Positions 1,729 to 21,792 of a stretch of 64,000 nucleotides of DNA are shown one piece after another. The position numbers were made by a program, and so were the translations under genes. Under the pieces are notes generated by a model that was not told the origin of the DNA, ran no database searches, and saw only the letters and a list, made by a program, of their open reading frames with translations. Within the stretch, counting starts at the first letter, position 1; the number at the start of each line of letters is the position of its first letter. This DNA is from Nitrospiria bacterium (GTDB lineage: Bacteria; Nitrospirota; Nitrospiria; JACQBZ01): assembly GCA_035498035.1 (NCBI GenBank), contig DATKAN010000055.1, positions 1 through 64,000 of the forward strand, in the 5' to 3' direction.

Positions 1729-1760
1729 CGCATCCTCCTCGCCGCCCCCTCGGTTCCCTT

Positions 1761-2870: not shown

Positions 2871-2888
2871 GTTAACCTCTCTTCATCC

Positions 2889-6025: not shown

Positions 6026-6934
6026 TTAATCCTTGGCGCATCGGACACCGTAGGTATAATCCGAATGCCAACCGTCTTTTTCCCGGGGCCCGACCGTCGG
6101 AAGAATCGCCAAACGCGCCGCGGTCCTCGAAAATGCGGCCTCGGTCAAATAGGAGCCTCCCCGGATGATCTTAAAACTTCCGGGATCCTTGACCATCCTC
6201 GACGGATTGCCGGGATAAGAGCGATAGGCCGTGGACGTCCATTCCCTCACGTTGCCGGCCATGTCATACACCCCGTAGGGGCTGACATCCTCCGGGTGGC
6301 CGCCGACCGGGGCCTTCCATCCCGGCACCCGGTAATGCCCCTGACCCGCGGGCGCCTTCCAGGCCGCGCTGCTCTCCAGGGTGTTGGCCCATCCGGGCTC
6401 GAAGCGATCGCCCCAGGGCCAGAGGCGGCCGTCGGTCCCCCGCGCGGCCTTTTCCCACTCGGTCTCGGTCGGGAGGCGCCGCCCCGCCCACCGGCAGTAG
6501 CCCGCCGCATCAAACCAGTCCACGTCCGATACGGGGTATTGGTCATACCCCTCCGGGAAATGATCCGCCCGGCCCGCCTCCTTCCAATAGCCCGGATATT
6601 TCTTCGAGCCCGTCGCGTTTAAAAATTGGAGGTACTGGGCCTCCGTGACCTCATAACGGTCGATGTAAAACCCCCGGACGTAGACCTTCTGCTGCGGAAG
6701 TTCATCCACCCCGATCTCGAACCCGATTCTTCCATCCCGCTCCGTGCTGCCCATGAGAAACCACCCGGCCGGCACGTAGACCATGGGGGTCTCCGGATTC
6801 GGGCGAGGAACCGCGGGCGGCAGGGATGCACAGCCGAACGGAAGCGCCAGGATGAACAAGGAGAATAGACCGGCGGCGAATCCGCTTCGACGGCTTCCAT
6901 GAAATCCCGGTCGGTCTTCAGATCGCCTTGCCAT
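6026..6934 (-). CDS. FGE/SUMF1-fold lipoprotein lacking the catalytic cysteines
   Basis: The 302-residue protein begins with a signal ending in a lipobox (LPFGC) and continues with a complete formylglycine-generating-enzyme (SUMF1) fold: MVYVPAGWFLMGS, FYIDRYEVTEAQY, YPVSDVDWFDAAGYCRWAGRRLPTETEWEKAARG, GVYDMAGNVREWTS and RGGSY near the end. True FGEs carry a Cys pair just after RGGSY; here the segment reads SYLTEAAFSRTAAR, with no Cys. It is therefore unlikely to convert Cys to formylglycine. Non-catalytic members of this fold bind ligands, like the C-type-lectin-like variants. ATG at 6934 shares a base with the upstream TGA (TGATG); GTG at 6937 is an alternative. Confidence 0.85.
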   Translation of the reverse strand: MARRSEDRPGFHGSRRSGFAAGLFSLFILALPFGCASLPPAVPRPNPETPMVYVPAGWFLMGSTERDGRIGFEIGVDELPQQKVYVRGFYIDRYEVTEAQYLQFLNATGSKKYPGYWKEAGRADHFPEGYDQYPVSDVDWFDAAGYCRWAGRRLPTETEWEKAARGTDGRLWPWGDRFEPGWANTLESSAAWKAPAGQGHYRVPGWKAPVGGHPEDVSPYGVYDMAGNVREWTSTAYRSYPGNPSRMVKDPGSFKIIRGGSYLTEAAFSRTAARLAILPTVGPREKDGWHSDYTYGVRCAKD

Positions 6935-7767
6935 CACTTCGGTGGTTCACCCGTACGTTCGTCCGCGTCCTTTGCGCAGCGGAAGCCGAAATCCGGCTGG
7001 GCCAATTCGGCCAGGCGGAAATGCCGATGGGCCGGTCGCGCGAAAGGATTGGCCGGCATGCCCCACGATCCCCCCCTCAGGACGCGAAATTTTTTGTCCG
7101 GGGCCATGGTCTTCGGAGCTCCCCGGTAGGATTGGAGAATGGAGGAGGTCCATTCCATCGCGTTTCCGGCCATGTCGTACACGCCGTACGGGCTGGCCCC
7201 CCCGGGAAAGCTCCCGGCGGGCGTCGTCCAGTTGCGCTTCGAGTCTTCCGTATTGAGCCGTTGGAGGTCCAGGCGGTTTCCCCAGGGCCAGATCCGCCCG
7301 TCCGTTCCCCGCGCGGCCTTCTCCCATTCCTCCTCGCTCGGAAGCCGTTTGCCCGCCCAGCGACAATACGCCTCGGCGTCATAAAAATTCACGTCGATCA
7401 CGGGATGATGGTCCTCCGGAGCGGGATATCCGAATTCTTTATAGTCCTTCCAGATCGAGGGCGTCTCGCGTCCGGTGGCGGCCACGAATTTCCGGTATGG
7501 ACCGATCGTCACTTCATACCGGTCGATCCAGAACGCCGGCACGGAGACGGTGTGCTTCGGAATGGAATCCACGCCCACCTCGAACCCGATCTTCCCGTCG
7601 TTGGCGTCGCTGCCCATCATGAACTCGCCCGCGGGGATCCGCACCATGTCCGCCGGCCCAGCGACGTTTGCGGCCGAAAGGTTGAACGGTTGAAAGGTCA
7701 GCAAGGTTAATAAGGGAAATACCTTCCCCACCTTCAAACCTTTCAACTTTTCCACCTTGAAACTCAT
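6934..7767 (-). CDS. Secreted FGE/SUMF1-fold protein, non-catalytic
   Basis: A 277-residue second member of the FGE-fold trio. Motifs in order: MVRIPAGEFMMGS, FWIDRYEVTIGPY, HHPVIDVNFYDAEAYCRWAGKRLPSEEEWEKAARG, GVYDMAGNAMEWTS, RGGSWGMPANPFARPAHR. The Cys pair expected after RGGS is absent. The signal peptide (residues 1-35) is encoded by AAGGTTGA-type heptamer repeats and their complement, giving an odd KVEKLKGLKVGK then LLTLLTFQPFNLSA. The chosen ATG at 7767 overlaps the preceding TGA by four bases; the frame stays open to 7962, but that part reads as shadow. Very similar to both neighbours, so a tandem triplication is likely. Confidence 0.84.
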   Translation of the reverse strand: MSFKVEKLKGLKVGKVFPLLTLLTFQPFNLSAANVAGPADMVRIPAGEFMMGSDANDGKIGFEVGVDSIPKHTVSVPAFWIDRYEVTIGPYRKFVAATGRETPSIWKDYKEFGYPAPEDHHPVIDVNFYDAEAYCRWAGKRLPSEEEWEKAARGTDGRIWPWGNRLDLQRLNTEDSKRNWTTPAGSFPGGASPYGVYDMAGNAMEWTSSILQSYRGAPKTMAPDKKFRVLRGGSWGMPANPFARPAHRHFRLAELAQPDFGFRCAKDADERTGEPPK

Positions 7768-8576
7768 TTCAAATCTTTGGCGCACCGGAAACCGATCGAC
7801 CGATGCCGCATTCCGGGTTCGCGGGCCATGGTGCGGCTGGCCGACCGGGCATAGGGTTCGCCCGGCAAGGTGTAGGCGCCGCCCTTGACTACCTTGTTTT
7901 TCCCGAAGGCGCTTCGAACGAGCCTGCTCCCCGGATAGGCCTGATACCAATCCGCGGTCCATTCGGCCACATTTCCGGCCATGTCGTAGACCCCGTAGGG
8001 GCTCACGCCCTTCGGAAAACTCCCGACGGGCAAGGTCCCCCCGGATTTATACTCCTGGACATTGGCCTTGCGGGGATCGAAGATGTTTCCCCAGGGCCAG
8101 ATCCGCCCGTCCGTTCCCCGCGCGGCCTTTTCCCATTCCTCCTCGGTCGGAAGCCTTTTGCCCGCCCACCGGCAATACGCCTCGGCGTCGTCCCATGATA
8201 CATAAATAATCGGGTGGTTTTCAAACTCTTTCGGAACCCCGCCCTCCCGGGCCCACGGATAAATTTCAGGGAACCGGGGGTCGCCGGGGGGCTTTCTTCC
8301 CGTTGCCTCAATGAACCGGCCGTACTGCTTCGCCGTCACCTCGTACCGGTCGATATAATACGCCCTCAGATCGACGGTGTGCTGCGGCAACTCGTCCACC
8401 CCCACGGTAAAACCGACCCGCCCGTCTTTCGGCGAGCTGCCCATTAAAAACTTCCCGGCCGGGATCAGGACCATGTTCTCCGGTATCCCCGCCCAGGTCG
8501 TTAAAGGGTTGAAAGGCGTCAGGGCCAGAACGCTTAGAACGGTGGCCAACCCTTTTAACCTTTTTCGACTTTTCAC
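7764..8576 (-). CDS. Secreted FGE/SUMF1-fold protein, non-catalytic
   Basis: The 270-residue first member of the trio in transcription order. Motifs: MVLIPAGKFLMGS, YYIDRYEVTAKQY, HPIIYVSWDDAEAYCRWAGKRLPTEEEWEKAARG, GVYDMAGNVAEWTA, and KGGAYTLPGEPYARSASR, again without the FGE Cys pair. The signal peptide ends around TTWAG. The likely start is GTG at 8576; no ATG precedes the signal. It begins 16 bases after the 12-heme cytochrome stop, so it is probably co-transcribed with it. Role unknown; in this context ligand binding or a structural surface role is more plausible than sulfatase activation, because no sulfatase is present in the window. Confidence 0.84.
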   Translation of the reverse strand: MKSRKRLKGLATVLSVLALTPFNPLTTWAGIPENMVLIPAGKFLMGSSPKDGRVGFTVGVDELPQHTVDLRAYYIDRYEVTAKQYGRFIEATGRKPPGDPRFPEIYPWAREGGVPKEFENHPIIYVSWDDAEAYCRWAGKRLPTEEEWEKAARGTDGRIWPWGNIFDPRKANVQEYKSGGTLPVGSFPKGVSPYGVYDMAGNVAEWTADWYQAYPGSRLVRSAFGKNKVVKGGAYTLPGEPYARSASRTMAREPGMRHRSIGFRCAKDLK

Positions 8577-8592: not shown

Positions 8593-11500
8593 TCACCCGC
8601 TCGTCCCCGGATTCCGGCCTCCGGCGCACCACCGTGCGTTCGGTGTGCCCGTGCTGGTGGCCTGGTAGGCGCAGGAGTCCATCACCTCGTTGTGGCAGCG
8701 CAAGTAACACCGGAACGCGGAGCCGTCGTAGAACCACATCGGCTTATGGTTCGTGGTCCCTTCGACCAGGGGGCCGAAATTGATCAGGTGCGTCCCCCGG
8801 ACGCCGTCCGGCATGCCGTCCACGCCGTCGTCCGCCAGCCCCCCGCCGTGACCGTCGCCGTAAATGGTGTTGAGCGCTTCGATGTTCGAGTGGACGTTGT
8901 AGTGGCATTCATGGCACATCGCGCCGCTCCACCGGAGATGGTACATATGAAGGTTTCCGTTCCACCACGAGTCCACCCCGGCGGAAGAAGGCGCCAGGCC
9001 GAAGAACCGTGTAAGGCTGCGGTCCTTATCCCCCAGGGTCGTCTGCCCGTAATAGGTCGTCGTCACGGCCGGATCGAAGGCCGCGCGATCATGACACTGA
9101 AAACAGAGCAGGAACTTTTGAAAATGGCTGGGGTTCGATCCGGCCCCTCCGCCCGCAATGCCGTGAGTGACCCCGCTCCCGCTGTACCCGTCCCCGCTGG
9201 CGCAACCCGGGGGATCTTGCTGCTCGAAGCAGCGGCCGGGCGCGAGGATGTTGGTATCGTAATTGGCCCGCAGGAGGCGCCGATGGATAGAGCCGTGCGG
9301 TCCGATGGGTTGGCTCGGCCGGCCCGTAATATAATCCACACGAAAATTGAGACCGGGCCAAACATCCGTTGGTCGGAGGTTGGACTCGGTCAACGGACCC
9401 AGGAAACCTCGATCGGAATTGCTTGAGAAACCCGTAACCGGAGTAATGCTTAATAAATTGTTATAGGCATCGTATTTATTGTTGTTATGACAATCCGTGC
9501 ATTGAATGGTTAAGTTGGACAGCGCGCTGGTCGCTGCGCCGGCGGAAGGAAGCGTATCGGCCGGCGTCTGACAATTGCTTATTCCAAATGCGGCGGCCAG
9601 TTGCTTGCACAGCTGGGGGGAGCCGTTGCGGCCCGGAACCACGACGGGATGGTAGGCCGGGTTCGGCTGCTGTGTGTGCGAAAAGACGGCCGTTCCGAAC
9701 CGGGCCAGGTCCACGCTGATCATCGGGGGGGTATCCAGATCATGGGACAGCGGGTTGAACTCGCGCCATTTGTTGCTGAAGCCCATATAGCTGAATTGAT
9801 CGCCCGTCGGACCGTTGGTCGGATCCGTCCGGGGCGAGAAGGGAATGGATACATAGCTGGCATAATTCTGCGGCACATTTAAGGCGATGACATCGTCGGG
9901 ATTCCGGTATTGTCTGGCTGAAATCGGCCCGAAGAGATTCGTATAGCTGTTGCCGTGGCAGCGGAAACAGACCTCGTACACGTAGGGATCCCGGTCCGCG
10001 CTGCTCTTGGTGGCCAGCAACGGGTGTTTCGCATTGATGGTGATGTCGGTTCCGCAGATGACGAACCCCGGCTCGCAACGACCCACCACGATGGGACGGG
10101 TCCCCGTGACGTCGATTCCGATCCCCTTCATTCCCTTGAGCCGTCCCCCCTCCCCGTTCGCGTTGGGCAAACCGGGCGGGGCGACATTCGGCGCGCCGTT
10201 GTAGGACAGGGCGAGTAAATTCGGGCTGTTCACCTGATGCGGGTTGTGGCAGTCCACGCATTCGATATGCGCCTCGTCCGGCGTGTTGCTCCCGGGCGGC
10301 TCCTCATTGAGGACGGGGACCATCGCCAGCCCTTCGCTCTTCAGCTGCACCCCCTCCTGGGAACGGGAGATGAAGACCGGGTCGTGGCCGCGGACCAAGG
10401 TCGGGAGTTGAAGACACATGGCGCTCCCCGTGCCGCTGCCCCCCGCGCAGGTCGAGTTGTCCTTGTTGAATTCGGAAAAGATGTCGGGGGCGTTTCGTGC
10501 GGTCGCGTTGGGTAAAAACCTAGGGTTGGTACTGGAGGTCTTATCTCCGGCCGGCAATAAATTCGCGATGTAATCATCGTTCACGCTTTTCTCGTTGGGC
10601 GCATGGCAAAGGAAGCAGGTGTTTTCGACCGCGTCGCTTCCACCGAAGGTCGTGACCCCTTCCTTATGGATCCTCTTCGCGCCCTGGGCCGTGTGCGGAT
10701 CATGACAGTTGCGGCAGGCGTAGGCCCCCACCGTATGGATCCCGTCGAAATCGTAGTTCTCGGGGTCGGGGGTGGCGGTGTCATCGGCGAGCGGATAGGC
10801 CGCGTGGATCGCCGTGCTCACGGAATGCGTGCTGGGACTCCAACCCGGCTTGCTGTGGCAATAAAGACAGATGATCTGCCCCGTCGCCGGCGTCGGTCCG
10901 CCACCCCCGATACAGGGCGTCGGACTGCAGGGCAGAAACCCCGACTCGCTCGCGTCCTGGAAGCGCGAGGCCCGAAGGAATTTGGGATAGGTCACGGCAT
11001 GGGGATTGTGGCAGGAGGTGCATTGAACGTTTTCAAAGGTCATCGGCGTTACCGTGCTTCCGTATCGCTTCACGCCGGTCTTGTACCCGCCGGCCGGGGC
11101 CAGCGGGGTCGCATCGTTGATCCCCGCCGGCGGCGGTCCGGGATCCACCAGCTCGGTGTCCGTCACCGTGGCCAGCGCGGAGTCGAATCGAAAGGAGATC
11201 GGATGATCGTTCTGAAGGTTACGGCCCAGGTTTCGCGTGTCGCCGGTGAACCCCCCGGATCCCAGGGGCATTTGACCGCCCGGCTGCACGCCGGTCATGC
11301 CGATGGTCGTGCTCAAATAGCCGCCCGATTCGGGCTTGTTAACCACGGTTCCGATCGCGATCGTGCCGTCGTGGCAGGACAGGCAGAGCCGGGAATACCC
11401 CGTGGGTTTGTTCGGATCGTTCAACGTCCCTTCAAACGAAAAGCTCCAGGTATTATCGTAGAGGGTATAGGACTGCGTGTTCTGATAGTCGATGTTGCGA

Positions 11501-11793
11501 TTCCAGATCGGCGCTTTTATTCCGGAGGCCGTGGCACTGGAACCATGGGGGGTGTGGCAGAAGACGCAGATCTCGGACGTTTCGGTGGATTTGACGGTAC
11601 CAAGCCCGGAGCTGGAAAGGTTGTGTTTCGTGATCTTGATGTCCTCTTCGATGGGAACGGTCCCCGGCGGTATGGGCTGGGCAAATACGGCATCCGCCGG
11701 GCCGAAGCCGTGCAGAAGGATCATAAAAATAATCAAGGCCCATGCCCCATGTTTATTAACGGCAAGACTCACTGCGGTACAATTTGGACCCAT
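8593..11793 (-). CDS. 12-heme c-type cytochrome with OmcE-like N-terminal module
   Basis: The 1066-residue precursor has a signal peptide ending near VFAQ. Eleven CXXCH haem sites can be read: CVFCH, CLSCH, CTSCH, CLYCH, CRNCH, CFLCH, CVDCH, CFRCH, CTDCH, CFQCH and CHECH. A twelfth, CYLRCH, has a three-residue spacer near the C-terminus. The first third (KHNLSSSG, EICVFCHTPHG, IWNR, LCLSCHDGTIA, DHPISF, CTSCHNPH) follows the same layout as the tetraheme proteins upstream in the operon. The remaining two thirds are long and haem-sparse. It is probably a secreted or outer-membrane electron-transfer protein. ATG at 11793 with AAGGAG and AAAGGG upstream is preferred over the open frame to 11853. 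It overlaps no neighbour. Confidence 0.93.
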   Translation of the reverse strand: MGPNCTAVSLAVNKHGAWALIIFMILLHGFGPADAVFAQPIPPGTVPIEEDIKITKHNLSSSGLGTVKSTETSEICVFCHTPHGSSATASGIKAPIWNRNIDYQNTQSYTLYDNTWSFSFEGTLNDPNKPTGYSRLCLSCHDGTIAIGTVVNKPESGGYLSTTIGMTGVQPGGQMPLGSGGFTGDTRNLGRNLQNDHPISFRFDSALATVTDTELVDPGPPPAGINDATPLAPAGGYKTGVKRYGSTVTPMTFENVQCTSCHNPHAVTYPKFLRASRFQDASESGFLPCSPTPCIGGGGPTPATGQIICLYCHSKPGWSPSTHSVSTAIHAAYPLADDTATPDPENYDFDGIHTVGAYACRNCHDPHTAQGAKRIHKEGVTTFGGSDAVENTCFLCHAPNEKSVNDDYIANLLPAGDKTSSTNPRFLPNATARNAPDIFSEFNKDNSTCAGGSGTGSAMCLQLPTLVRGHDPVFISRSQEGVQLKSEGLAMVPVLNEEPPGSNTPDEAHIECVDCHNPHQVNSPNLLALSYNGAPNVAPPGLPNANGEGGRLKGMKGIGIDVTGTRPIVVGRCEPGFVICGTDITINAKHPLLATKSSADRDPYVYEVCFRCHGNSYTNLFGPISARQYRNPDDVIALNVPQNYASYVSIPFSPRTDPTNGPTGDQFSYMGFSNKWREFNPLSHDLDTPPMISVDLARFGTAVFSHTQQPNPAYHPVVVPGRNGSPQLCKQLAAAFGISNCQTPADTLPSAGAATSALSNLTIQCTDCHNNNKYDAYNNLLSITPVTGFSSNSDRGFLGPLTESNLRPTDVWPGLNFRVDYITGRPSQPIGPHGSIHRRLLRANYDTNILAPGRCFEQQDPPGCASGDGYSGSGVTHGIAGGGAGSNPSHFQKFLLCFQCHDRAAFDPAVTTTYYGQTTLGDKDRSLTRFFGLAPSSAGVDSWWNGNLHMYHLRWSGAMCHECHYNVHSNIEALNTIYGDGHGGGLADDGVDGMPDGVRGTHLINFGPLVEGTTNHKPMWFYDGSAFRCYLRCHNEVMDSCAYQATSTGTPNARWCAGGRNPGTSG

Positions 11794-11849
11794 CTTGTTC
11801 CCTTTCTCTCCTTCCGCCCCCTGTCTTCGAGGGTGAACGGACGGCCTTG

Positions 11850-12905
11850 TCACGGTTTAGGTTCCCCCAGGAACTGGAAGACCTCCACCCGCTGGTTGTA
11901 GGTGTCCGCCACATAAATCCGGTCCTTTTTGTCGACGGCGATTCCGGCCGGCAACCAGAAATCCCCTTCCTTCTCGCCGGCATGGCCGAAGTTCAGAAGC
12001 AGCTCGCCTTTCCGGTCAAAGATCTGGATCGTGTCGTAGATGCCGTCCACCACATAAATATGTCCGGAAGAGTCCACCGCGACGCCCTTGGGCTTCGAAA
12101 AGCTACCCAGGGTGTTTCCCAACTGACCCAGCTTTCCTAAAAACTTTCCCTCCTCATCGAAAATCTGGACCCTGAAGTTCATCGAGTCTGTGATGTACAA
12201 AGTTCCCTCGGCATCGATCGTGATGTGGGTCGGAAAATTGAGCTCGCCCTCCTTTTCCCCCCGTTGTCCGAACGTCATCAGCTTTTTACCCGAGAGATCA
12301 AAGGCCGATACATTGTGGGCCCCGGTGTCCACCGCATAAAGCCTCCGCGATTTCGGATCATAGGCGATTCCGGTCACACGATGAAACTCCCCCGGCGCCC
12401 CGATCGTCCGGACCAGTCTCCATTTTTTAGGTTCGTAAACAAAGATCCGGTTCAGCTCCGAATCGGACACATAAATGAGGCCGTTTTCATCCAGGGCGAC
12501 CCCCACGGGGGACATCAGGCGGGATCGGCCCCGCTCGATCCAAAATATCTGGTGATAGGACTTGTCCGCAAAATCGTAAATATGGACGGCCTGGAGGCCG
12601 GTATCCGTGACGTAGACCCGCCCCTTTCCGTCCGTGGCCACGGCATAGGGACGAAGCATGTGCGGAGCCGCGCCCTTTCCAAACAGAAATTCCACGGTCA
12701 TTCTGAACCAACTCCGTTTAACACCCAGGTCCTTGGGCTCGGAAAAACTATTAAGATACGAAATCACCGGCGGATCGGGCGGCAACGGCCAGTAGCGTTC
12801 CACCTTGTCGGCCTTCTCAAGCCCGGTCGTCGCGCAGGATGTCAGAATCAAGCCCAGCCCCAAGAGCCTAAAAAGTCCGACGGTGATCTTGGCGCCCCCC
12901 TTCAT
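11850..12905 (-). CDS. NHL-repeat six-bladed propeller lipoprotein
   Basis: A 351-residue lipoprotein: signal ending LILTSC (lipobox), a short linker with WPLPPDPPVISYLNSF, then six NHL-type blades (for example PYAVATDGKGRVYVTDTGLQAVHIYD, PTHITIDAEGTLYITDSMNFRVQIF, PKGVAVDSSGHIYVVDGIYDTIQIFD, PAGIAVDKKDRIYVADTYNQRVEVF). It is a clear paralogue of the NHL lipoprotein at 18.5-19.5 kb. The start is ATG at 12905, sharing one base with the upstream TGA (TGATG), so translation is coupled to the beta-barrel gene. NHL propellers next to multihaem cytochromes and barrels recur in metal-reducing bacteria, where they are proposed to take part in assembly. That role is inferred here. Confidence 0.9.
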   Translation of the reverse strand: MKGGAKITVGLFRLLGLGLILTSCATTGLEKADKVERYWPLPPDPPVISYLNSFSEPKDLGVKRSWFRMTVEFLFGKGAAPHMLRPYAVATDGKGRVYVTDTGLQAVHIYDFADKSYHQIFWIERGRSRLMSPVGVALDENGLIYVSDSELNRIFVYEPKKWRLVRTIGAPGEFHRVTGIAYDPKSRRLYAVDTGAHNVSAFDLSGKKLMTFGQRGEKEGELNFPTHITIDAEGTLYITDSMNFRVQIFDEEGKFLGKLGQLGNTLGSFSKPKGVAVDSSGHIYVVDGIYDTIQIFDRKGELLLNFGHAGEKEGDFWLPAGIAVDKKDRIYVADTYNQRVEVFQFLGEPKP

Positions 12906-14854
12906 CAAAACGGCCTGCTGGCCCGCGCCATGATGGAGCGGGTCCCGTACCGGTCGCCGGACGTCCGGGTTTCAATCTCCTGGAACTGTATTCCCAGGAT
13001 CAACTTGCCGACCTGATAAGTTAAGGTGGCGTCGCCCTCCAATACATTGACATCGGGACGGAAGCGGTTGTCCTCCTCCGTATCCTTAACCGAGGCGAGC
13101 AGGTTCGTGTTCAGCATCAAATAGGTGGTGTACTGGATCTGGCCGGTAAATATCTGCCGATCCAGAAGGAGCTCGATCGGATATTTCTCAATCCGGTAGG
13201 TCGCGTTCGCCACCAGCCCGACCGGGGTGGAGTAGTTGCCCTCCAGGTCGCCCGAAGTCTCTCTTCCGGCCACGCCGAATCCCGTGGTATCGGAGTAACT
13301 GGCCGTGCCCCGGAGCAGGAGGCTATCGGAGTTGATGATCAAATTCCTGTAATACGAGCTGTCGCCAAAAAGTTGAAGGAGATAGGTGTTTTGATCCGTC
13401 CGGACGGAATCGGTCTTGCGCTGGATGTTGCTGTAGGTCCCGTTCAAACCGACATGGAGGATCTGGGTATTGGTGTTATCCACCCCCAGCGTGATATTGT
13501 TGCTCAGGTCGGTGGAATCGACCCCGATCGGATTCGTGGTCGAATCACCGTAGCTGATCTGATAAGAGGTCCGGTACTGAAGATTCTGCCAGGGCCGGAA
13601 ATACATGATGTTATAACGGTATTGCTGGAAGAGATTATTGGTGTCCGGCGTCCCCGTGTTGATCGTGGAGGTCAGCCCGGCGCTGCCGGCCAGGCCGGTC
13701 GTCAGGCCGAAGATCGGACGGTAGTTCAAGGTCGCATCGGCCGATTCGGAGTTGATGGTCGAGTCGGTGACGGAAATGTGCAGGTATCGACCGTCGAAGG
13801 ACGAGTCCGTTTTTTCGTTGTAGCGCAGGTTCGCCAATCCCTGAACGGTCTCGGTCTTAAAATCATTAAAGAAGGGCGTCTCGCTGTAGTTATAACTGGC
13901 CATGCCATCCCACCAGTACAGGAGGGGGCGATAAATCAGCGCGGTGCCGAGACTCCGCTCCTGAAAGAAGGACACCCCGGCGGTCGGTCCTCCCGGAACC
14001 AGGGGAATCGCCGTCACCGCTTCGGGGATATGCCGTTGGGCGTAGCGTCCGTACGCGGTGAGGGTGAGGCTGGTCGTCAATTCGGAATTGAGGTCGAGAT
14101 TGAAGCCGTTCGAGGTGGAGGCGGAGGAGGTGTTGGTGTCCGCTTCACTGTATTGGTAGCCGCCCGACAGATGGCTCGCCCCGATGGTCGTATCGGTGAG
14201 GGCGGTGAATGTCCGGGTGAGATACTGAGTTCCGGTATTCGAGTCGAGATGGGTCTGCTGGAAGTTCAGGACCAATCGCGGTATTTTCTGGAGGTTGACG
14301 ACCCAGTTCGCACCCAGCGAATTAATATGATCGGTGGTAGACAAACTTGTGCCGTTCATGCTCAGGTCGTTCTTCCGGTCCACCCGTTGAGCGCTCAGGT
14401 TCAGGGGAGACCATACCGGAAACAAATTCATGGTGAGCCGGTAATCCATCACATTAAAACGGTTTTCCTGATCCGTCTGGTGAAGCTTCACGTCCTGGTC
14501 CAGCCACGAGACATCGGCGCGATACCCGCCGAGGCGATTGGCGTCCCCAAATACATACAGGCCGTATTGCTGATTGAGCGAACGAATGGTGCTGGTCGTG
14601 TTACTCACGTTGGTGTCCGAAAAAGTCGTGGACGTGTTGTAATTGATGTCTAAGTTGCCCCCGATATTGAGAAGGCGCGCCCGGGCCTCGGAGCATTCCA
14701 CAAGGATCGATAAGACCGCCATCATCCACAGCCAGCGGCCGTTGGGCCTTGGCCACGGCCATCCGGCCCTCCCTGTCTCTCTCCATTGACGACACTTCCC
14801 TGAAAACGCGGAACGGATCCACCGGTTAAAAGACCCCTCGACTCCCCTTTGCAT
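12905..14854 (-). CDS. Outer-membrane beta-barrel protein, putative cytochrome conduit or export porin
   Basis: A 649-residue protein with an N-terminal hydrophobic segment (WMMAVLSILVECSEARA), then alternating polar/hydrophobic strands rich in Tyr, Asn, Ser and Thr (for example LNIGGNLDINYNTST, LGANWVVNLQ, ADATLNYRPIFGL). It ends in ASRPF; a C-terminal Phe is the usual BAM recognition residue. There are no haem motifs. Together with the adjacent multihaem cytochrome, NHL lipoprotein and prolyl isomerase it resembles porin-cytochrome modules (MtrB/PioB-like architecture), though family assignment by eye is not possible. ATG at 14854 lacks a good ribosome site, and the first 45 residues are unusually basic. 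The 74 bases before it show no convincing promoter. Confidence 0.82.
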   Translation of the reverse strand: MQRGVEGSFNRWIRSAFSGKCRQWRETGRAGWPWPRPNGRWLWMMAVLSILVECSEARARLLNIGGNLDINYNTSTTFSDTNVSNTTSTIRSLNQQYGLYVFGDANRLGGYRADVSWLDQDVKLHQTDQENRFNVMDYRLTMNLFPVWSPLNLSAQRVDRKNDLSMNGTSLSTTDHINSLGANWVVNLQKIPRLVLNFQQTHLDSNTGTQYLTRTFTALTDTTIGASHLSGGYQYSEADTNTSSASTSNGFNLDLNSELTTSLTLTAYGRYAQRHIPEAVTAIPLVPGGPTAGVSFFQERSLGTALIYRPLLYWWDGMASYNYSETPFFNDFKTETVQGLANLRYNEKTDSSFDGRYLHISVTDSTINSESADATLNYRPIFGLTTGLAGSAGLTSTINTGTPDTNNLFQQYRYNIMYFRPWQNLQYRTSYQISYGDSTTNPIGVDSTDLSNNITLGVDNTNTQILHVGLNGTYSNIQRKTDSVRTDQNTYLLQLFGDSSYYRNLIINSDSLLLRGTASYSDTTGFGVAGRETSGDLEGNYSTPVGLVANATYRIEKYPIELLLDRQIFTGQIQYTTYLMLNTNLLASVKDTEEDNRFRPDVNVLEGDATLTYQVGKLILGIQFQEIETRTSGDRYGTRSIMARASRPF

Positions 14855-14928
14855 CAACGGCCCCGCGCCCCGATGAAAGATCTATCTTAAAATATCGACC
14901 CTCAGATTGAATCAACGAGTGATACGCA

Positions 14929-16053
14929 TCAATAGATTTTGATTTCAGCCTTCGCACGAAGGCCGTCCATCCATTCTTTCAACCTCGCGTTTGTCGCGGA
15001 CTTCCGCATTTCATTCCGCAACAGGTCCTTGTTGAGATCCTCAAAGGCCATCTGCCGGGCCGGTTGTTTCTCCTCCACCTTGAACACCACGTATCCGTAA
15101 AGCGTCTGAACCGGATCGTTGATGGAACCCACGTCCCGGTCATACGCCACCCCTTCAAGCTCGGCATAGGGCAAACGCCCTTGATGAAGAAGACCCGTAT
15201 CGCCTCCCGTCGCTTTCAGGTCTTCATCCTCCGAAAACTCCCGCACCAGTTTTTCAAAATCCTCCCCCTTTTTGGCGCGGTCGGCCAATTCCTGCGCCCT
15301 CTGACGGCCCTTTTCCCAATCCGCCGCACGCCCGGAGGGATCCACCCGGATCAATAAAATCCGCAACCGGATTTGCTGCGGCCGCATGAACTGTTCCGGA
15401 TGACGGTCATAATATACTTTCATCTGATCATCGCTGATGCTGATTTTTGAACGAACCTCCCGATCGGTCAACTGCTGAATGGCCAGATGTCTCTCGACCC
15501 CGGTTCGGATATCCTCCGGGGTCAGCCCTTGAACCTCCAGCGCCCGCCGGTATTTTTCCTCCGACGGAAACCGGCCCTGGATCTTCCGGATCTCGGCCTC
15601 GACGGCCTCCGCCTTCACATTGATCTTCAAGCGCCGGGCCTCTTGATACAGGATCTCCTGGCCGATGAGTTTATCCAGCTCTTCGCTTTGGATCTCGGCC
15701 AGTCGCTTCTGGGAAATCGTGCGATGACCGGTCTCCGGGATGCGTTCCTCCATGGCCTTCTGAAGATCGGCCGCCCGGATATCGACGCCGTTCACCGAAG
15801 CGACCGGTTTGGATAACGCGGTCCCTACGTTGTCGCCGCCGGCATGCGTTTCCGGCCCGCCGGCCTGGACGCCGCCGCCCGAAACAGAGAGCAGCGCGAA
15901 CAATAAGATCGCTTGGATCCGGCCCCCTCCATTCCCGCCGCGGGCTTGTCTATGTAAAGGGGCTCGACTGAGCTCGCCGAAGTCGGGACGGAGCGGCTCG
16001 ACTGAGCTCTCCGAAGTCCTCCCCCTCTCGCTCCCCTTGCTCGCTGAGCCCAT
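14929..16053 (-). CDS. SurA-N/PPIC peptidyl-prolyl isomerase, periplasmic
   Basis: The 374-residue protein has a hydrophobic signal segment (IQAILLFALLSVSGGGVQA, about residues 47-65), a SurA-like N-terminal helical region (about 80-215: VASVNGVDIRAADLQKAMEER..., KLIGQEILYQEARRLKI) and one parvulin PPIC domain (about 218-320: QIRLRILLIRVDP, EDFEKLVREFSED, GGDTGLLHQGRLP). It ends without a lipobox. Family role: folding of outer-membrane or secreted proteins. Next to a beta-barrel and secreted cytochromes it probably chaperones them. The first roughly 45 residues are encoded by repeat DNA (two 24-bp copies) and look non-native; no ribosome site precedes ATG 16053, so the mapped start is uncertain. 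Confidence 0.87.
   Translation of the reverse strand: MGSASKGSERGRTSESSVEPLRPDFGELSRAPLHRQARGGNGGGRIQAILLFALLSVSGGGVQAGGPETHAGGDNVGTALSKPVASVNGVDIRAADLQKAMEERIPETGHRTISQKRLAEIQSEELDKLIGQEILYQEARRLKINVKAEAVEAEIRKIQGRFPSEEKYRRALEVQGLTPEDIRTGVERHLAIQQLTDREVRSKISISDDQMKVYYDRHPEQFMRPQQIRLRILLIRVDPSGRAADWEKGRQRAQELADRAKKGEDFEKLVREFSEDEDLKATGGDTGLLHQGRLPYAELEGVAYDRDVGSINDPVQTLYGYVVFKVEEKQPARQMAFEDLNKDLLRNEMRKSATNARLKEWMDGLRAKAEIKIY
15961..16018. repeat. Two 24-bp direct repeats inside the isomerase 5' end
   Basis: Positions 15961-15984 and 15995-16018 read GGCTCGACTGAGCTC, then G or T, then CCGAAGTC, so the copies differ at one base and start 34 bases apart. The unit contains an inverted core (GACTGAGCTC and flanking GACTTCGG on the other strand). 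Similar TCGACTGAGCTCGCCGAAG units occur as dispersed repeats in many genomes (from memory). Here it supplies codons for the N-terminal extension of the prolyl isomerase. Confidence 0.75.
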
Positions 16054-16074
16054 TTGATTTTATTTATCCATATA

Positions 16075-16116
16075 TAAAAAACAGGATGCCTCACCTCGGA
16101 ACAGCGGGAAGCATCC
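16075..16116 (-). terminator. Intrinsic terminator after the tetraheme cytochrome genes
   Basis: Read on the minus strand, GGATGC and GCATCC form a six-base stem around a 21-base interior, followed by TG and a run of six T. It lies between the stop of the tetraheme gene (16228) and the isomerase start (16053), so it separates the upstream cytochrome unit from the isomerase/barrel unit. Confidence 0.65.
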
Positions 16117-16143
16117 AGGAAATGAACCGCGATATTTCGGCCT

Positions 16144-16170
16144 GCGGGGACGGGTTCACCCCGCCCCCGC
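16144..16170. other. Strong GC hairpin in the cytochrome-isomerase gap
   Basis: GCGGGGACGGG and CCCGCCCCCGC flank a TTCA-type loop, with one bulge per arm. There is no T-run beside it, so it is not a terminator by itself. It sits 57 bases past the tetraheme stop and may protect the mRNA 3' end or act with the terminator 30 bases further on. Confidence 0.5.
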
Positions 16171-16227
16171 AATGCCGTTGGTTTATCCCCTCAAGATCCT
16201 ATCGCAGGGCCCTGCGCCCTTTTTCCC

Positions 16228-17283
16228 TTATTTCTGATGGCAGGAGATGCAGATCAAACTTCCCGCGTTTGGATTATCCGCGAGCAAGGTGGCATCCCCA
16301 TTACCCAATAGGTCGTTCACAGTCGTCGCCCCGCCGCCGGATGGAAGCGCCAACGCCGAATCATAGCGGCTGGGGAGCCGGAGGAACATCGGCCGTGGCG
16401 CATGCGGATTGTGGCAAGAGGCGCACTCGATATATTTACCGCCCGCAGGCCGGCCGCCCCCCGCGGCCGGATAGGCACGGAGGGTATCCCGCTTATCCTG
16501 ATTGACCGTTCCCGTCCGTGTCAAAAGCGTCAACCCGCTTGGATCGGGCGCGCCCGAATTATTGATCAACTGGTCAAACTGGGGATCGGGACCGGCGCCG
16601 GTGGAGGGGATCTCCATGCTGATCGGGTGATCATCGCTCAGGTCCGTTGTCAGGTTCGGAAACGGCGCGGCGCCTCCCAGGATCTGCTCATAATTTGGAC
16701 CGGTATCCGTCCTCTGCGCATTGTTCATGGTATTGGTGCCCGCGCTCAGGAAGGCCGACCCCCCCGCCGGTTGGATCAAATTCGTGGTGCCTCCCGGAGG
16801 GGTTTCGTTGGCCACCCGGAATCCGCCGGATCCGGGCATGTTGATCAAGGAATCGAGCGCGATCGTTCCGTCGTGACAGGACAGACAGGCGAGGGAAACG
16901 CCCTGGGGCTGGCCGGAATTGGTCCCGTCGAAATTGGGGCTTGTGTAAATCGTGTAGCTTCCCGACGCCCCGACCGTCCGGTTCCACAACGGCGGCGCAC
17001 CCGGCGTCCCGATCGTGTTGGGATTCGCGCCGTGCGGCGTGTGACAGAAGACGCAGACCTCCGCCGTCGAGGTCGCCGTCCCGTTGATGTTGATCCCGGC
17101 CATGATGTTGGACGTGCTTAGATTGTGCAGCGTGTTCCTAACGTCCTCCGCCGCGCGAGGTCCCGCGGCACCCTCGGGGTGGCCGAGCGTCGTGGTCCCC
17201 AAGTGCATCGCCCAGCCCACGATCGGGGCGGCCAGCACCAGCGCGCCGGCAATCAGCATGAAAATTTTGCGTTTCAATGGCAT
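16228..17283 (-). CDS. Tetraheme c-type cytochrome, OmcE-like
   Basis: A 351-residue precursor with signal peptide (residues 1-25, ending VGWA). Four CXXCH sites: CVFCH (77-81), CLSCH (133-137), CASCH (287-291) and CISCH (345-349). Between them are the landmarks seen in OmcE-type filament cytochromes: LHNLSTS before haem 1, CVFCHTPHG, PLWNR, a Tyr-rich turn, SLACLSCHDGTIALD, DLSDDHPISMEIP, IECASCHNPH, FLRLPS and a C-terminal LICISCHQK. The protein is therefore a candidate subunit of an extracellular cytochrome filament; this is inference from motif order. ATG at 17283 has AAGGAGG nine bases upstream. It is the closest paralogue of the gene 60 bases upstream. Confidence 0.93.
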   Translation of the reverse strand: MPLKRKIFMLIAGALVLAAPIVGWAMHLGTTTLGHPEGAAGPRAAEDVRNTLHNLSTSNIMAGININGTATSTAEVCVFCHTPHGANPNTIGTPGAPPLWNRTVGASGSYTIYTSPNFDGTNSGQPQGVSLACLSCHDGTIALDSLINMPGSGGFRVANETPPGGTTNLIQPAGGSAFLSAGTNTMNNAQRTDTGPNYEQILGGAAPFPNLTTDLSDDHPISMEIPSTGAGPDPQFDQLINNSGAPDPSGLTLLTRTGTVNQDKRDTLRAYPAAGGGRPAGGKYIECASCHNPHAPRPMFLRLPSRYDSALALPSGGGATTVNDLLGNGDATLLADNPNAGSLICISCHQK

Positions 17284-17343
17284 CGCCCTATCCTCCTTTC
17301 CGGTGACATGTTTACCGCAACCATCCTTGATCTTATCCTCAAA

Positions 17344-18465
17344 TTACTTTGCATGACAGGACAAACAGATCGCACTGCCCGCATTGGGCATTTGACCCCA
17401 CATTTTCCCGGCGGGGTTTCCGGCAGTATCCGACGGAGAAAGGTCCTTCTGGACCAAGCCCGGAACGCCGCTCGGCAGCCTCAGAAACGACACCCGGGGG
17501 GTATGGGGGTTGTGACAGGAGGCGCACTCGATATAATACCGCCCGGGCTGCTCCGTCGACGGATAGGCGCGGAGGCGGTCCCGTTTTTCCAACGGCCAGA
17601 CCGCCAGTCCGGGGGGCGGCAGCGATCGGCTGATATAAGCGACGCTGGTCCCGTCCGTCCCGCCGTCCAGTTTGGACGTCGTCAGGTCCTGGCAGATTTG
17701 ATTGAACTGGGCATCGGTGAGGCAGGGGATCTCGATTCCGATCGGGTGATCATCCCGGAGATCCAGACCCAGGTTCGGGAAAGGCTGCGCTCCCTCGCCC
17801 CCGCCGCCGCCGTGCACCAGATCGTGAAGGCCCCCGGAAAAAGGACTCTCGCCGGTCTTCTCCACCTCCGTGGTATCCCGCAGTCCCTCGTTAAAGGTCT
17901 TGTCGCCGTCCACGATCCCGCCCCCGAAAAAATTGATCGAGTTGGTGCTGGTCCCCGGACCGCGGCCAAAGCCGAGATTGGTCGGATTGAATCCCCCCGA
18001 TCCCGGCCCGTTGACCAGCGCATCAAAGGCGATGCTTCCGTCGTGGCAAGACAGGCAGGCGAGGGACACCCCCTTGGGCCGGCGCGTCCCGGTGACGTCC
18101 TGCGCGTCGAAGTTCGGGGAGCCGTAAACCTCGTAACTGGTATCGTCCGGCAGGAGGCGGTTCCAGAGGGGGGCGTTGCTCGAGGCGGCCATATTGGCCC
18201 CGTGCGGTGTGTGGCAGAAGACACAGATCTCGGTCGTGCCGGTGGCGTTGATATCGGGATTGGAGGAGAGATTGTGCTTGGTCCGGCTCACGTCTTCCGA
18301 CAGCCTCACATCGTGTGTGGCCTGCGCCGGCGGCTCCAGGGCGACCATCAAAAGCACCCCCAGGAACACGCCGAGGATTCCTCGCTCCAGGCGGAATCGG
18401 CCAAGGGTCGAATGCCGCCCGATCCGTTTGTCTCCCGACCGATCCTGACCCGTGGAAAATCGCAT
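17344..18465 (-). CDS. Tetraheme c-type cytochrome, OmcE-like
   Basis: A 373-residue precursor. Residues 1-49 form a long n-region plus signal (GVFLGVLLMVALEPPAQA). Haem sites: CVFCH (81-85), CLSCH (137-141), CASCH (314-318) and CLSCH (367-371). Same landmark order as its neighbours: RTKHNLSSN, CVFCHTPHG, PLWNR, CLSCHDGSIAFDAL, DLRDDHPIGIEIP, IECASCHNPHTP, FLRLPS and ICLSCHAK. A Gly/Asn-rich insertion of about 80 residues lies between haems 2 and 3. Two extra Cys (CLTDAQFNQIC, 248 and 258) could form a disulfide. ATG at 18465 is preceded by AGGGAG. Predicted secreted electron-transfer or filament subunit. Confidence 0.92.
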   Translation of the reverse strand: MRFSTGQDRSGDKRIGRHSTLGRFRLERGILGVFLGVLLMVALEPPAQATHDVRLSEDVSRTKHNLSSNPDINATGTTEICVFCHTPHGANMAASSNAPLWNRLLPDDTSYEVYGSPNFDAQDVTGTRRPKGVSLACLSCHDGSIAFDALVNGPGSGGFNPTNLGFGRGPGTSTNSINFFGGGIVDGDKTFNEGLRDTTEVEKTGESPFSGGLHDLVHGGGGGEGAQPFPNLGLDLRDDHPIGIEIPCLTDAQFNQICQDLTTSKLDGGTDGTSVAYISRSLPPPGLAVWPLEKRDRLRAYPSTEQPGRYYIECASCHNPHTPRVSFLRLPSGVPGLVQKDLSPSDTAGNPAGKMWGQMPNAGSAICLSCHAK

Positions 18466-18487
18466 GCGACTCCCTGTACGGCCCGAC

Positions 18488-19546
18488 TCATTTCTTTAGG
18501 GCGGCCGCCTGCCTGGCCTTGTAATTCTCGCTCAGGTACTGATAAACATTAATCCGATGGTTGTATTGATCGGCGACGTAAATCAGGTCGTCCTGGTCAA
18601 TGTACATCCCGGCAGGAAGCCAAAACTGTCCATCCCGGTTTCCGAACCCGCCGAAGAACAGAAGCAGCTGGCCCTTCGGGTCGAATATCTGGACATTGTT
18701 GAACGCGGCGTCCACCACATAGATGTGCCCTTCGGAATCGACCGCGATTCCCTTGGGCTTCGCAAATTGGCCCAGCCCCGTGCCGACGCTTCCGAACTTG
18801 GACAAAAACTTCCCGTCCGGGTCGAAAATCTGGACGCGAAAATTAAACGTATCCATGATATACAGCTTGCCGTCTTTGTCGATCGCGATGTTGGTGGGAA
18901 AATTGAACTGGCCGTCCTCGACGCCGCGAGTCCCAAATTCGAATAGAAATTTCCCCTCTTTGGAGTCGAAGACGGAGACCTTGTGTTTTTTGGTATCGAC
19001 GATGTAGACGCGATTGAGCGCCTCGTTGACCACGATGCCGACCGGTTGATCAAACCGGCCCTTCTCGCCGATTCCGAACAAAAAGTTTCCGTCGTGATCG
19101 TACACCACGGCCCGATTCTCCAGCGTGTCGGTCACGTAGATCCGGCCGGCCGAATCGGTCGTGACCCCCATCGGCTTGGCCAGCACGCCCGGTCCTTCCA
19201 GACCGATGATCGTGAATTCCTGTTTTTTGGTGTCGAACACCAAAACGGTAGGCCACCCGCTGTCCGTCACAAACAAGCGCCCTTCTCCGTCCATGTGGAC
19301 GGCATAAGGCTTGGCGATGCGCGCGGCCGATTGGGATCCGGTGATGAATTCTTCGAGTGATTTCCAAAAACTTTTCCGTTCGACGTCGTTCGAACTTCGG
19401 ATGCTCTTGACGTATTTGATTCTCGGTTCCTCGGGCGGCAAGGGCCAGATGACGTCCACGGGCTTCGGGGCCGTGGCACAGCCCGTCGCGATCAGGACAA
19501 GGATCATCGGCCAGATGGGAGGGTTCCGTTGAATTTTTATCCCCAT
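18488..19546 (-). CDS. NHL-repeat six-bladed propeller lipoprotein
   Basis: The 352-residue paralogue of the NHL lipoprotein at 11.9-12.9 kb. Signal ending VLIATGC (lipobox), a WPLPPEEPRIKYVKS linker almost identical to that paralogue, then six NHL blades (PYAVHMDGEGRLFVTDSG, PMGVTTDSAGRIYVTDT, PTNIAIDKDGKLYIMDTFNFRVQIFDPDGKF, PKGIAVDSEGHIYVVD, PAGMYIDQDDLIYVADQYNHRINVYQ). ATG at 19546 is chosen over the upstream in-frame start at 19582, which would overlap the pentaheme gene. It sits between haem proteins: 11 bases after the pentaheme stop and 22 bases before the tetraheme gene, so tight co-expression is expected. Confidence 0.91.
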   Translation of the reverse strand: MGIKIQRNPPIWPMILVLIATGCATAPKPVDVIWPLPPEEPRIKYVKSIRSSNDVERKSFWKSLEEFITGSQSAARIAKPYAVHMDGEGRLFVTDSGWPTVLVFDTKKQEFTIIGLEGPGVLAKPMGVTTDSAGRIYVTDTLENRAVVYDHDGNFLFGIGEKGRFDQPVGIVVNEALNRVYIVDTKKHKVSVFDSKEGKFLFEFGTRGVEDGQFNFPTNIAIDKDGKLYIMDTFNFRVQIFDPDGKFLSKFGSVGTGLGQFAKPKGIAVDSEGHIYVVDAAFNNVQIFDPKGQLLLFFGGFGNRDGQFWLPAGMYIDQDDLIYVADQYNHRINVYQYLSENYKARQAAALKK

Positions 19547-19557
19547 GGTTCCATCCG

Positions 19558-20358
19558 TTATTTTTGATGACAGGTCAGGCACAAGGCGCTGAACCGGTTC
19601 GATGTCCGGAGAAACGGGTCTCGTCCCTCGATATTCTTCTCGTCCGGATTATGCGGATCATGACACGAGGCGCATTGAACTTTGTCGCCCTCGAAGGTCT
19701 GAACCCCGTTCGGGAAGCTGCGCCCCCCGTCTTCCTTGGCAATGAGCGGCTGGTTGAAGGCCGAATCCTGGCTGAAGGTCGGGTAGGGAATCGAAATCGG
19801 GTGGTCGTCCCGCAGGTTCCGGGTCAGGTAACGGATGGTCGCGTCATGGGCCCCGCTCAACGCGCCGTAGGCTCCCCGCTGACGGTTATGACATTTCCCG
19901 CAGCTGTCCGAACCCACATTTCCTTCCGGACTCATGCGGTAATGGACCCCGGAATCGTACCAGTCGTGAAACTTCGGTTTGTTGAGTACGGCGTCCACCG
20001 CCACGGATCCGTCGTGACAGGAGAGGCATCCGAGTGATATGCCGTCGGGAGCGGACGCGCTCGAATCGAAATTGGGACTGGAATACATTTCATAACCGAG
20101 CGGAGTAGGAAGCTGGCGGTTCCAGAGGGGCGCCGTGGTTCCGGCGTTATGGGGCGTGTGGCAGTAAATACAGGTCTCTCCGTAATCGTTGAATGACCCG
20201 CCGGTCATCGGGCCGGTCGGGCTGCCGTAGCCCCTTCGGTTCAGGGCCGAAAGGTCATGCCTCGATCCCACGATCGTTCCGCCCAGTGCGGACATCGCGA
20301 GGACGATCAGCCCTCCGCCGACGAGAACACCCGCAACAACATAGCGAGAGGTCTTCAT
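19558..20358 (-). CDS. Pentaheme c-type cytochrome, OmcE-like, first gene of the unit
   Basis: A 266-residue precursor with signal anchor (residues 5-27). Haem sites: CIYCH (63-67), CLSCH (111-115), CGKCH (153-157), CASCH (229-233) and CLTCH (260-264). The OmcE-type landmarks are compact here: SRHDLSALN, CIYCHTPHN, APLWNRQL, YEMYSSPNFD, CLSCHDGSVAVDAVLN, LRDDHPISIPYP, VQCASCHDPHN, FLRTSN and ALCLTCHQK. This is the closest of the three to the reported OmcE length and motif order, with one additional haem (CGKCH) inserted between haems 2 and 3. ATG at 20358 follows GAGGGGG. A sigma70-like promoter lies about 155 bases upstream. Confidence 0.94.
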   Translation of the reverse strand: MKTSRYVVAGVLVGGGLIVLAMSALGGTIVGSRHDLSALNRRGYGSPTGPMTGGSFNDYGETCIYCHTPHNAGTTAPLWNRQLPTPLGYEMYSSPNFDSSASAPDGISLGCLSCHDGSVAVDAVLNKPKFHDWYDSGVHYRMSPEGNVGSDSCGKCHNRQRGAYGALSGAHDATIRYLTRNLRDDHPISIPYPTFSQDSAFNQPLIAKEDGGRSFPNGVQTFEGDKVQCASCHDPHNPDEKNIEGRDPFLRTSNRFSALCLTCHQK

Positions 20359-20633: not shown

Positions 20634-21701
20634 CTATTCCGGTGCGGAAAAACCTTCCAGCTTGCTGATCCCTTTGAGCGTCCCGAACCATTTGGACCCG
20701 AAAGGATCCATGACCGCGGCGAAGACGCCATCGTCGACCAAACCGTCCTTGGTTGTGAAGCGGCTCCAACGGCCCCGGCTGAACACGCTCACCCCCCCCT
20801 CCGTCGCGGCATAAAGGTTGTCGCTCGAATCGATCAGGATGTCCGAGATGAAGTTGCCCGACAGGCCATCCCGCGTCGTGTAGGTCGTCCAACGTTTGCC
20901 GTCGAAGCGGCTGAGCCCCGCGCCCCAGGTCCCGAACCACTTGTTGTTTTGAGAATCGACCGCGGCGGCCAGGATGTAATTGGGGTTGTATCCCTCGGCT
21001 TCTTTTCCCGGCGTCGTGCGATGGTGAAAGCTGGGATTGGCGATTTTTTCATACGATCCGATGGTCTTGAGGTCCGCCCCGACGCCGTCCTTATGCGTAT
21101 AGCTTACAAATCCACGGCCGTCGTAGCGCGTCACGCCGCCCTCCGTTCCCAACCAGATCACTCCGTCCTGATCCATGGCCAGGGCATAGACCCAGTCATC
21201 CACAATTCCGTCTTTTTTGGTGTAGCTCTTCCAACGGGTCCCGTCAAAGATGCTGACCCCTTTCCAGTTCGCCACCCACATCCGTCCCGCCCGATCGAAC
21301 AGGATGTCGTAAACATAGGGATCCGCCAGATCCGGAACGTTGAAATTCTGCCAGATCTTTCCATCAAACCGGGCCAGCCCTCCCCCGTGCGTCCCGATCC
21401 ATTTGTTTCCCTTCGAATCCACTTTGATCGTGGTCACGATGTCCGACACAAGACCCTTCTTGCTGTCATACCGGGCGACGATCCTATCCTGAGTCAGATC
21501 GTATTCGATCAGTCCCTGTTCGGTCCCGACCCAGACATCGTTTTTTTCAAACGCCAGGCTGAAGACGCTGACGTTCATCTCGTAATTGGTCCAGACGGGA
21601 TGCGGCGAGACCGGGGCTCGCGAAGAAGTGCAGTTCGTTACGGCAAAGAAACTGAGGGATCCGATAAAGATGATCGAGGGGAAGAGACGACAACGAATCA
21701 T
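20634..21701 (-). CDS. Two-component-regulator-type propeller lipoprotein
   Basis: The 355-residue lipoprotein has the lipobox VTNC at about residue 24. At least seven propeller repeats of the Reg_prop type follow (GLVSDIVTTIKVDSKGNKWIGTHGGGLARFDGKIW, ILFDRAGRMWVANWKGVSIFDGTRW, LAMDQDGVIWLGTEGGVTRYDGRGF). This repeat usually forms the sensor of hybrid two-component proteins, but no kinase domain follows, so it is a stand-alone periplasmic propeller. ATG at 21701 has AAGGAG six bases upstream and its own promoter. It precedes the cytochrome unit by 275 bases, a gap that holds the cytochrome promoter and operator. Confidence 0.88.
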   Translation of the reverse strand: MIRCRLFPSIIFIGSLSFFAVTNCTSSRAPVSPHPVWTNYEMNVSVFSLAFEKNDVWVGTEQGLIEYDLTQDRIVARYDSKKGLVSDIVTTIKVDSKGNKWIGTHGGGLARFDGKIWQNFNVPDLADPYVYDILFDRAGRMWVANWKGVSIFDGTRWKSYTKKDGIVDDWVYALAMDQDGVIWLGTEGGVTRYDGRGFVSYTHKDGVGADLKTIGSYEKIANPSFHHRTTPGKEAEGYNPNYILAAAVDSQNNKWFGTWGAGLSRFDGKRWTTYTTRDGLSGNFISDILIDSSDNLYAATEGGVSVFSRGRWSRFTTKDGLVDDGVFAAVMDPFGSKWFGTLKGISKLEGFSAPE

Positions 21702-21725: not shown

Positions 21726-21754
21726 ATTCTACGCGCCCGAAGCGAACGAGTCAA
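21726..21754 (-). promoter_or_regulatory. Promoter of the Reg_prop lipoprotein gene
   Basis: TTGACT (21754-21749), 17 bases, TAGAAT (21731-21726) on the minus strand. The predicted transcript start leaves a leader of about 20 bases with AAGGAG before ATG 21701. Its -35 is 9 bases from the -35 of the divergent plus-strand promoter. Confidence 0.65.
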
Positions 21755-21763
21755 GGCCGTTTC

Positions 21764-21792
21764 TTGACAAACTTCCTTGTCTTACCTAAGAT
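21764..21792 (+). promoter_or_regulatory. Promoter of the UbiA-family gene
   Basis: TTGACA (21764-21769), 17 bases, TAAGAT (21787-21792). The TTG codon at 21777 lies inside the promoter, so the CDS must start at the later ATG 21822. Divergent with the Reg_prop promoter. Confidence 0.7.

Follow-up and report, generated by a model that had tools for sequence, protein, structure and literature searches.

A Nitrospirota gene cluster with OmcE-type cytochromes, a predicted barrel and a 12-haem relative: a plausible nanowire locus

Little is known, by published accounts, about how cytochrome nanowires fold, leave the cell, become anchored and terminate (PMC12307469). A gene cluster of interest in this respect lies in a 64,000-nucleotide stretch of DNA from an uncultivated Nitrospiria bacterium (GCA_035498035.1, contig DATKAN010000055.1, positions 1 to 64,000; hereafter the window). 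This stretch is part of a Nitrospirota genome of 2.67 Mb in 67 contigs, the named near relatives of which are groundwater Nitrospirae/Nitrospiria metagenome-assembled genomes. The first-pass annotation had seen here a filament locus, similar to that of Geobacter OmcE, with its own export and assembly set. Twelve co-directional genes run on the minus strand from 21701 to 6026, separated mostly by small gaps or overlapping, in the order PROP, A5, NHL1, B, C, PPI, BARREL, NHL2, BIG, FGE1-3. The homology and the linkage behind that proposal are borne out by the sequences and by phylum-wide gene order, and we consider, with moderate confidence, that this is an OmcE-type nanowire locus combined with a folding and secretion set and two specialised subunits, A5 and BIG.

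The three secreted cytochromes A5, B and C proved to be genuine open reading frames of the minus strand with five, four and four CxxCH motifs, respectively, and the motif order that they had been claimed to share with OmcE was reproduced as a column-for-column alignment with OmcE of Geobacter sulfurreducens (PDB 7tfs) and with PDB entry 9yuq. One of these two entries was the best phmmer match in PDB for each protein, and E-values of 1.1e-20 to 1.4e-15 against 7tfs mean that the likeness to OmcE is not due to chance. The initial description was limited to three such modules, but a fourth complete one forms the N-terminal part of BIG, and for all four modules 7tfs and 9yuq were the only strong PDB matches. 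A profile built from 30 B/C sequences matched 7tfs at 8e-30. In the joint alignment the four CxxCH motifs share their columns with KH, CHTPH, PLWNR, DHP and CHxxH. Since the aligned chain of 9yuq contains exactly four histidines outside CxxCH (OmcE has five), those of KH, CHxPH, DHP and CHxxH are the likely distal ligands. No substitution of the eight ligand histidines occurs among the 72 sequences of the phylum that were aligned (30 B/C, 24 A5-type and 18 BIG), and each of the 54 standalone modules terminates exactly at CxxCHxK, as OmcE and 9yuq do. Judged by sequence, OmcE homology of A5, B and C is thus strongly supported. The number of histidines per subunit was considered as a means to decide on ligation between subunits and rejected, because a subunit that lends one histidine and borrows another retains the same total: each has four distal histidines for four core haems with or without lending to a neighbour. 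Another tetrahaem cytochrome, standing alone (loci L001/L069; contig C38, about 94.1 kb), was noticed to have an OmcE-like motif order (KHN, DHP, CxxCHNPH, FLR); CHIKG replaces CHTPH there, so that it has one distal histidine fewer, and nature thus provides a counterpart with which B and C can be contrasted.

In A5 the additional CxxCH (residues 153-157) follows core haem 2 and precedes core haem 3, and according to the alignment H171 (GAHDAT) or H139 is the candidate distal ligand of this haem. It had been taken for a gain by one copy; however, the fifth CxxCH is invariant, together with the core histidines, in all 24 aligned A5-type sequences, which makes A5 a separate old subunit type. In a tree of 74 modules the BIG heads form one clade (100/100), 23 of 24 A5 modules another (95/91) and 28 of 30 B/C modules a third (93/96). 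By this topology all three types appear to predate the sampled families. Compared between the same families, B is on average only 50% identical versus 67% for A5, and it is the tetrahaem B type that was duplicated in the source family. Greater divergence and duplication make B and C the leading candidates for the role of repeating unit: to judge from the sequences, a subunit that repeats and is exposed at the surface would be expected to vary in this way next to a constrained adaptor (A5). Outer-surface cytochromes, including wire proteins, have been found among the fastest-changing ones (PMC12977616).

BIG retains all eight ligand histidines in its OmcE module, but its chain runs past CHxK into eight further haem sites, the last of which is CX3CH. 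The set of 11 CxxCH and one CX3CH is present in 18/18 orthologues, and against the 54 standalone modules the one in BIG is the sole module type that continues beyond CxxCHxK. Should the free C-terminus be situated at the subunit joint or close to it, as we infer, BIG can sit only at the end of a chain, which makes it a candidate end-piece of the filament, with the free C-terminus replaced by an eight-haem extension. In the tail there are about 94 residues to each haem. This value is nearer to surface terminal cytochromes than to peptide-minimised conduits, so BIG is probably located outside the barrel. A weak local match to NrfA was considered as a sign of nitrite-reductase activity of the tail and discarded, CxxCK being found in no orthologue.

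What accompanies these cytochromes can be read as an assembly set. The prolyl isomerase of SurA/PPIC type and both NHL proteins that had been named at the outset were confirmed by Pfam. For the proposed outer-membrane beta-barrel the support is indirect. Thr/Asn/Tyr-rich composition, the absence of Cys and a C-terminal Phe kept in 19/19 aligned homologues and in 8/8 families speak for a predicted barrel, and the strand-alternation score is only weakly above shuffled sequences (30 versus 25.0, standard deviation 2.9). On the other hand, BARREL has no match in Pfam or NCBIfam, its 19 homologues have none in Pfam except DUF2490 in one (0.0061), no barrel was matched in the PDB search, and assignment to the MtrB/PioB type was dropped for want of profile support. 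As to distribution, the barrel profile matched 61 of the 296 Nitrospirota genomes that make up our phylum sample, and 60 of these 61 also have an OmcE-type cytochrome (hypergeometric 4.5e-36, kinship not corrected for), the gene of which lies within 10 kb of the barrel gene in at least 42 genomes (median 2.5 kb). The position of NHL1 between A5 and B is conserved, as is the place of PPI, and syntenic orthologues of PROP adjoin A5 in several families. Genes for a prolyl isomerase, a propeller and a putative channel (the role suggested for BARREL) thus stand next to a filament-type cytochrome gene and are inherited together with it, and linkage of OmcE-type cytochromes to an assembly and export set is strongly supported by these genomic data.

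A search for the same gene set in other genomes, suggested together with the original proposal, revealed the cassette order across eight families. The OmcE-type profile matched 96/296 genomes. In the source family all 7 genomes have the cytochromes, and the order is the same where contigs allow; one genus has a split cassette (genome G003, loci L030/L031), where some 14 kb of the same contig separate BIG from NHL2 and the B-type tetrahaem cytochromes number three. The order A5-NHL1-B-PPI-barrel-NHL2-BIG, mostly followed by FGE, is repeated in families f4-f8 of the same class and in f12 and f19 outside it. Besides L063, two f19 loci were fetched, and in both of them BIG is on another contig. 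Haem counts (5, 4 and 12) are kept along with gene order across the eight families. In the distant families f13, f15 and f17 NHL genes stand beside OmcE-type cytochromes with different partners, PPI being kept in f15 and f17. In all listed genomes of f2 neither the cytochromes nor the barrel occur. Alternation of cytochromes with propellers, noted at first sight, is only loosely true, the actual order in the window being A5-NHL1-B-C-PPI-barrel-NHL2-BIG. The features are collected in Table 1.

Table 1. Genes of the cluster and the module within BIG, with positions in the window
Feature	Position	Strand	Description	Matches
PROP	20634..21701	-	Putative lipoprotein with two-component-regulator propeller repeats; first cluster gene	Pfam Reg_prop 2.7e-21
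A5	19558..20358	-	Secreted OmcE-type cytochrome, 5 CxxCH	7tfs E=1.1e-20
NHL1	18488..19582	-	NHL-repeat beta-propeller, putative lipoprotein; lipobox ATGC	Pfam NHL 6.7e-33
B	17344..18465	-	Tetrahaem OmcE-type cytochrome, candidate repeating filament subunit	9yuq 7.4e-17, 7tfs 1.4e-15
C	16228..17283	-	Second tetrahaem OmcE-type cytochrome, B paralogue, candidate repeating subunit	7tfs E=1.3e-15
PPI	14929..16053	-	SurA_N/PPIC-type prolyl isomerase, putative periplasmic chaperone	Pfam SurA_N_3 2.6e-18, Rotamase 1.7e-15
BARREL	12905..14857	-	Predicted outer-membrane beta-barrel, uncharacterised family; putative secretion channel or anchor	
NHL2	11850..12908	-	Second NHL-repeat beta-propeller lipoprotein; lipobox LTSC	Pfam NHL 2.1e-38
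BIG	8593..11853	-	12-haem cytochrome of 1086 residues: 11 CxxCH and 1 CX3CH	
OmcE module in BIG	10846..11676	-	Residues about 60-336	BIG profile: 9yuq 7.7e-18, 7tfs 4.5e-17
FGE1-3	7764-8576, 6934-7962, 6026-6937	-	SUMF1/FGE-fold proteins downstream of BIG	Pfam FGE-sulfatase 4.6e-60 and 9.3e-52

From one to three FGE copies follow BIG in most complete loci, and this linkage is kept in most other families. FGE1 of the window matched the GldK/PorK model of the type IX secretion system below the cut-off of that model. Directly downstream of the cluster (745-4979, minus strand) two large PD40/WD40-like propeller proteins are encoded. The scan for sigma-70 promoters gave 9 sites versus 6.0 expected (standard deviation 2.4) and that for terminators 24 versus 17.7 (standard deviation 4.2); a divergent pair at 21726-21792 was the only scan result fitting the start of the operon. 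No Rfam elements were found in the cluster. Elsewhere in the window, the survey of open reading frames showed by eye a near-identical pair of frames resembling transposases associated with repetitive extragenic palindromic elements (33582-34454 and 36535-37395, minus strand) with an RHS-like-looking frame between them (34692-36554).

Based on these data one can outline how the parts would work together. By analogy with known systems PPI may assist the folding of the loop-rich cytochromes in the periplasm, BARREL and the two propeller lipoproteins may export them and anchor them at the outer membrane, and the NHL lipoproteins may also shape or hold the wire. Outside the cell B and C would polymerise into an insulated chain of stacked haems, in which one histidine crosses each subunit joint, as it does in OmcE. 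Having the same core, A5 and BIG should be able to join this chain. The simplest reading of the extra haem in A5 is a branch off the main chain, so that A5 would be a branch or contact subunit. BIG would be the end-piece, its OmcE head capping the chain and its eight-haem tail passing electrons on, either at the base or at the tip, with the current directed outward (mineral reduction) or inward (metal oxidation). To our knowledge cytochrome wires described so far are homopolymers and their termini are not known. A heteropolymeric nanowire with genetically encoded ends, where BIG terminates the chain and connects it to a donor or acceptor while A5 starts or branches it, would be a novelty in this respect, and we offer this extended version tentatively, at somewhat less than an even chance.

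Several circumstances weigh against a wire at this locus. Among the hexahaem paralogues of G. sulfurreducens only OmcS is known to form wires, so homology alone can overcall them (PMC12977616), and the role of cytochrome filaments as physiological conduits is itself disputed (PMC13194489; PMC11077965). AlphaFold2 gave no usable structure either for mature B (11-sequence alignment; predicted local distance difference test, pLDDT, 33.4; predicted template modelling score 0.27) or for the barrel (3-sequence alignment, pLDDT 25.9), probably owing to the small number of sequences. As for an electron path to the wire, in this genome no quinol cytochrome of NapC/CymA type was found above cut-off and matches to the decahaem MtrA/DmsE model TIGR03508 were far below it. 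Two trihaem cytochrome c7 proteins encoded elsewhere in the window (42273-42935 and 44120-44734, plus strand; Pfam Cytochrome_C7) resemble trihaem proteins flanking the cassette in families f6-f8 and, judging by this resemblance, may be its periplasmic feeders. A frame of 413 residues with 14 CxxCH in a regular, peptide-minimised repeat (locus L073, 1105-2346, minus strand, contig C61) was also observed; by its sequence it could be a periplasmic conduit.

The proximity of a barrel and a 12-haem cytochrome brings in another arrangement, a porin-cytochrome conduit, in which BARREL and BIG would form a trans-outer-membrane complex and A5, B and C would be its surface or soluble partners without any polymer. 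Indeed, in complete loci the two genes are near neighbours with NHL2 between them, a haem-copper oxidase is present in the genome, and for Ca. Manganitrophus Mn1 three complexes of a porin with a dodecahaem cytochrome have been described, PCC_1 being proposed for Mn(II) oxidation (PMC9040806). However, the tail of BIG, as mentioned above, is far from the peptide-minimised type threaded through barrels, such a conduit leaves four OmcE-type modules without a reason, and PCC_1 is reported only in Ca. Manganitrophaceae, whereas the cassette spans many families; for this last reason its identification with PCC_1 was also considered unsupported. Altogether we regard a conduit of this kind as rather improbable.

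Less remote from the nanowire proposal, and largely overlapping it, is the option that only B (and C) polymerise, while A5 and BIG are separate electron-transfer proteins of shared ancestry with no role at the ends; the two differ only in what they assign to A5 and BIG. The old separate clades of A5 and BIG heads leave time for such a change of role, but both types keep all core ligands and remain members of this cluster from family to family, so we find this option unlikely, though better than a conduit. The direction of the current is independent of either choice. The wire may import electrons from Fe(II) or Mn(II) oxidation instead of exporting them, which is in line with the presence of the haem-copper oxidase, with the failure of any dsrA match in the genome to reach cut-off and with Mn(II)-oxidising Ca. 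Manganitrophus in the same class (PMC9040806). Direction, however, is not readable from sequence and no specific donor-side gene was identified; import is a real possibility, at somewhat less than even odds.

The nanowire interpretation remains plausible and is supported more by gene order than by motifs alone. Fixed order, fixed haem counts and a barrel almost always found with an OmcE-type cytochrome narrow the parts to be tested to a few. BIG, in which an OmcE unit and an eight-haem domain are fused, offers a tangible candidate for the wire end that has been missing. In addition, a likely wire system now reaches across a phylum to which manganese oxidisers and many lineages from groundwater belong.

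Among known systems the closest is the OmcE filament of G. sulfurreducens (GSU0618, PDB 7TFS), to which the proteins of the window are related by homology, four CxxCH, the same four positions of distal histidines, the PLWNR and DHP motifs and the chain end at CxxCHxK. In contrast to OmcE, with a mature chain of about 210 residues, the chains here have about 320 with long insertions; two tetrahaem paralogues share one cluster with five-haem and 12-haem relatives, and their filament is a predicted one. The helical rise of the OmcE filament is near 34 A (PMC12954529). PDB 9YUQ, a 'Putative multiheme cytochrome c' with 16 copies in the entry, is the best or second-best match for every module and has the same motif order, but only four haems. 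In the osc (omcS-companion) operon of the same Geobacter (GSU2500-2493) a filament cytochrome likewise adjoins folding, secretion and morphology proteins together with large multihaem cytochromes; OscH is reportedly a prolyl isomerase and OscD propeller-like. For OmcS wires folding has been proposed as the task of OscH, secretion of OscE-G and morphology of OscD (PMC13194489; PMC12977616). The list of parts in the window (isomerase, propeller, channel, large multihaem cytochrome) resembles this operon by analogy, but the wire protein that osc serves, OmcS, is not similar to OmcE in sequence, and the Nitrospirota set is likened to Osc by published roles only. The multihaem operon of SEEP-SRB (Skennerton 2017, cited in PMC12246660) also unites large multihaem cytochromes with a prolyl isomerase and a beta-propeller, but these cytochromes have 26 and 16 haems and no OmcE modules are reported there. 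PCC_1-3 of Ca. Manganitrophus, from the same class, combine a barrel with a 12-haem cytochrome as here, but in the passages considered (PMC9040806) neither an OmcE module nor extra OmcE-type cytochromes are mentioned and PCC_1 belongs to one family. Thus, the kind of system is itself known, and what is new here is a design of several subunits, one of them a fused 12-haem protein, together with a dedicated barrel family.

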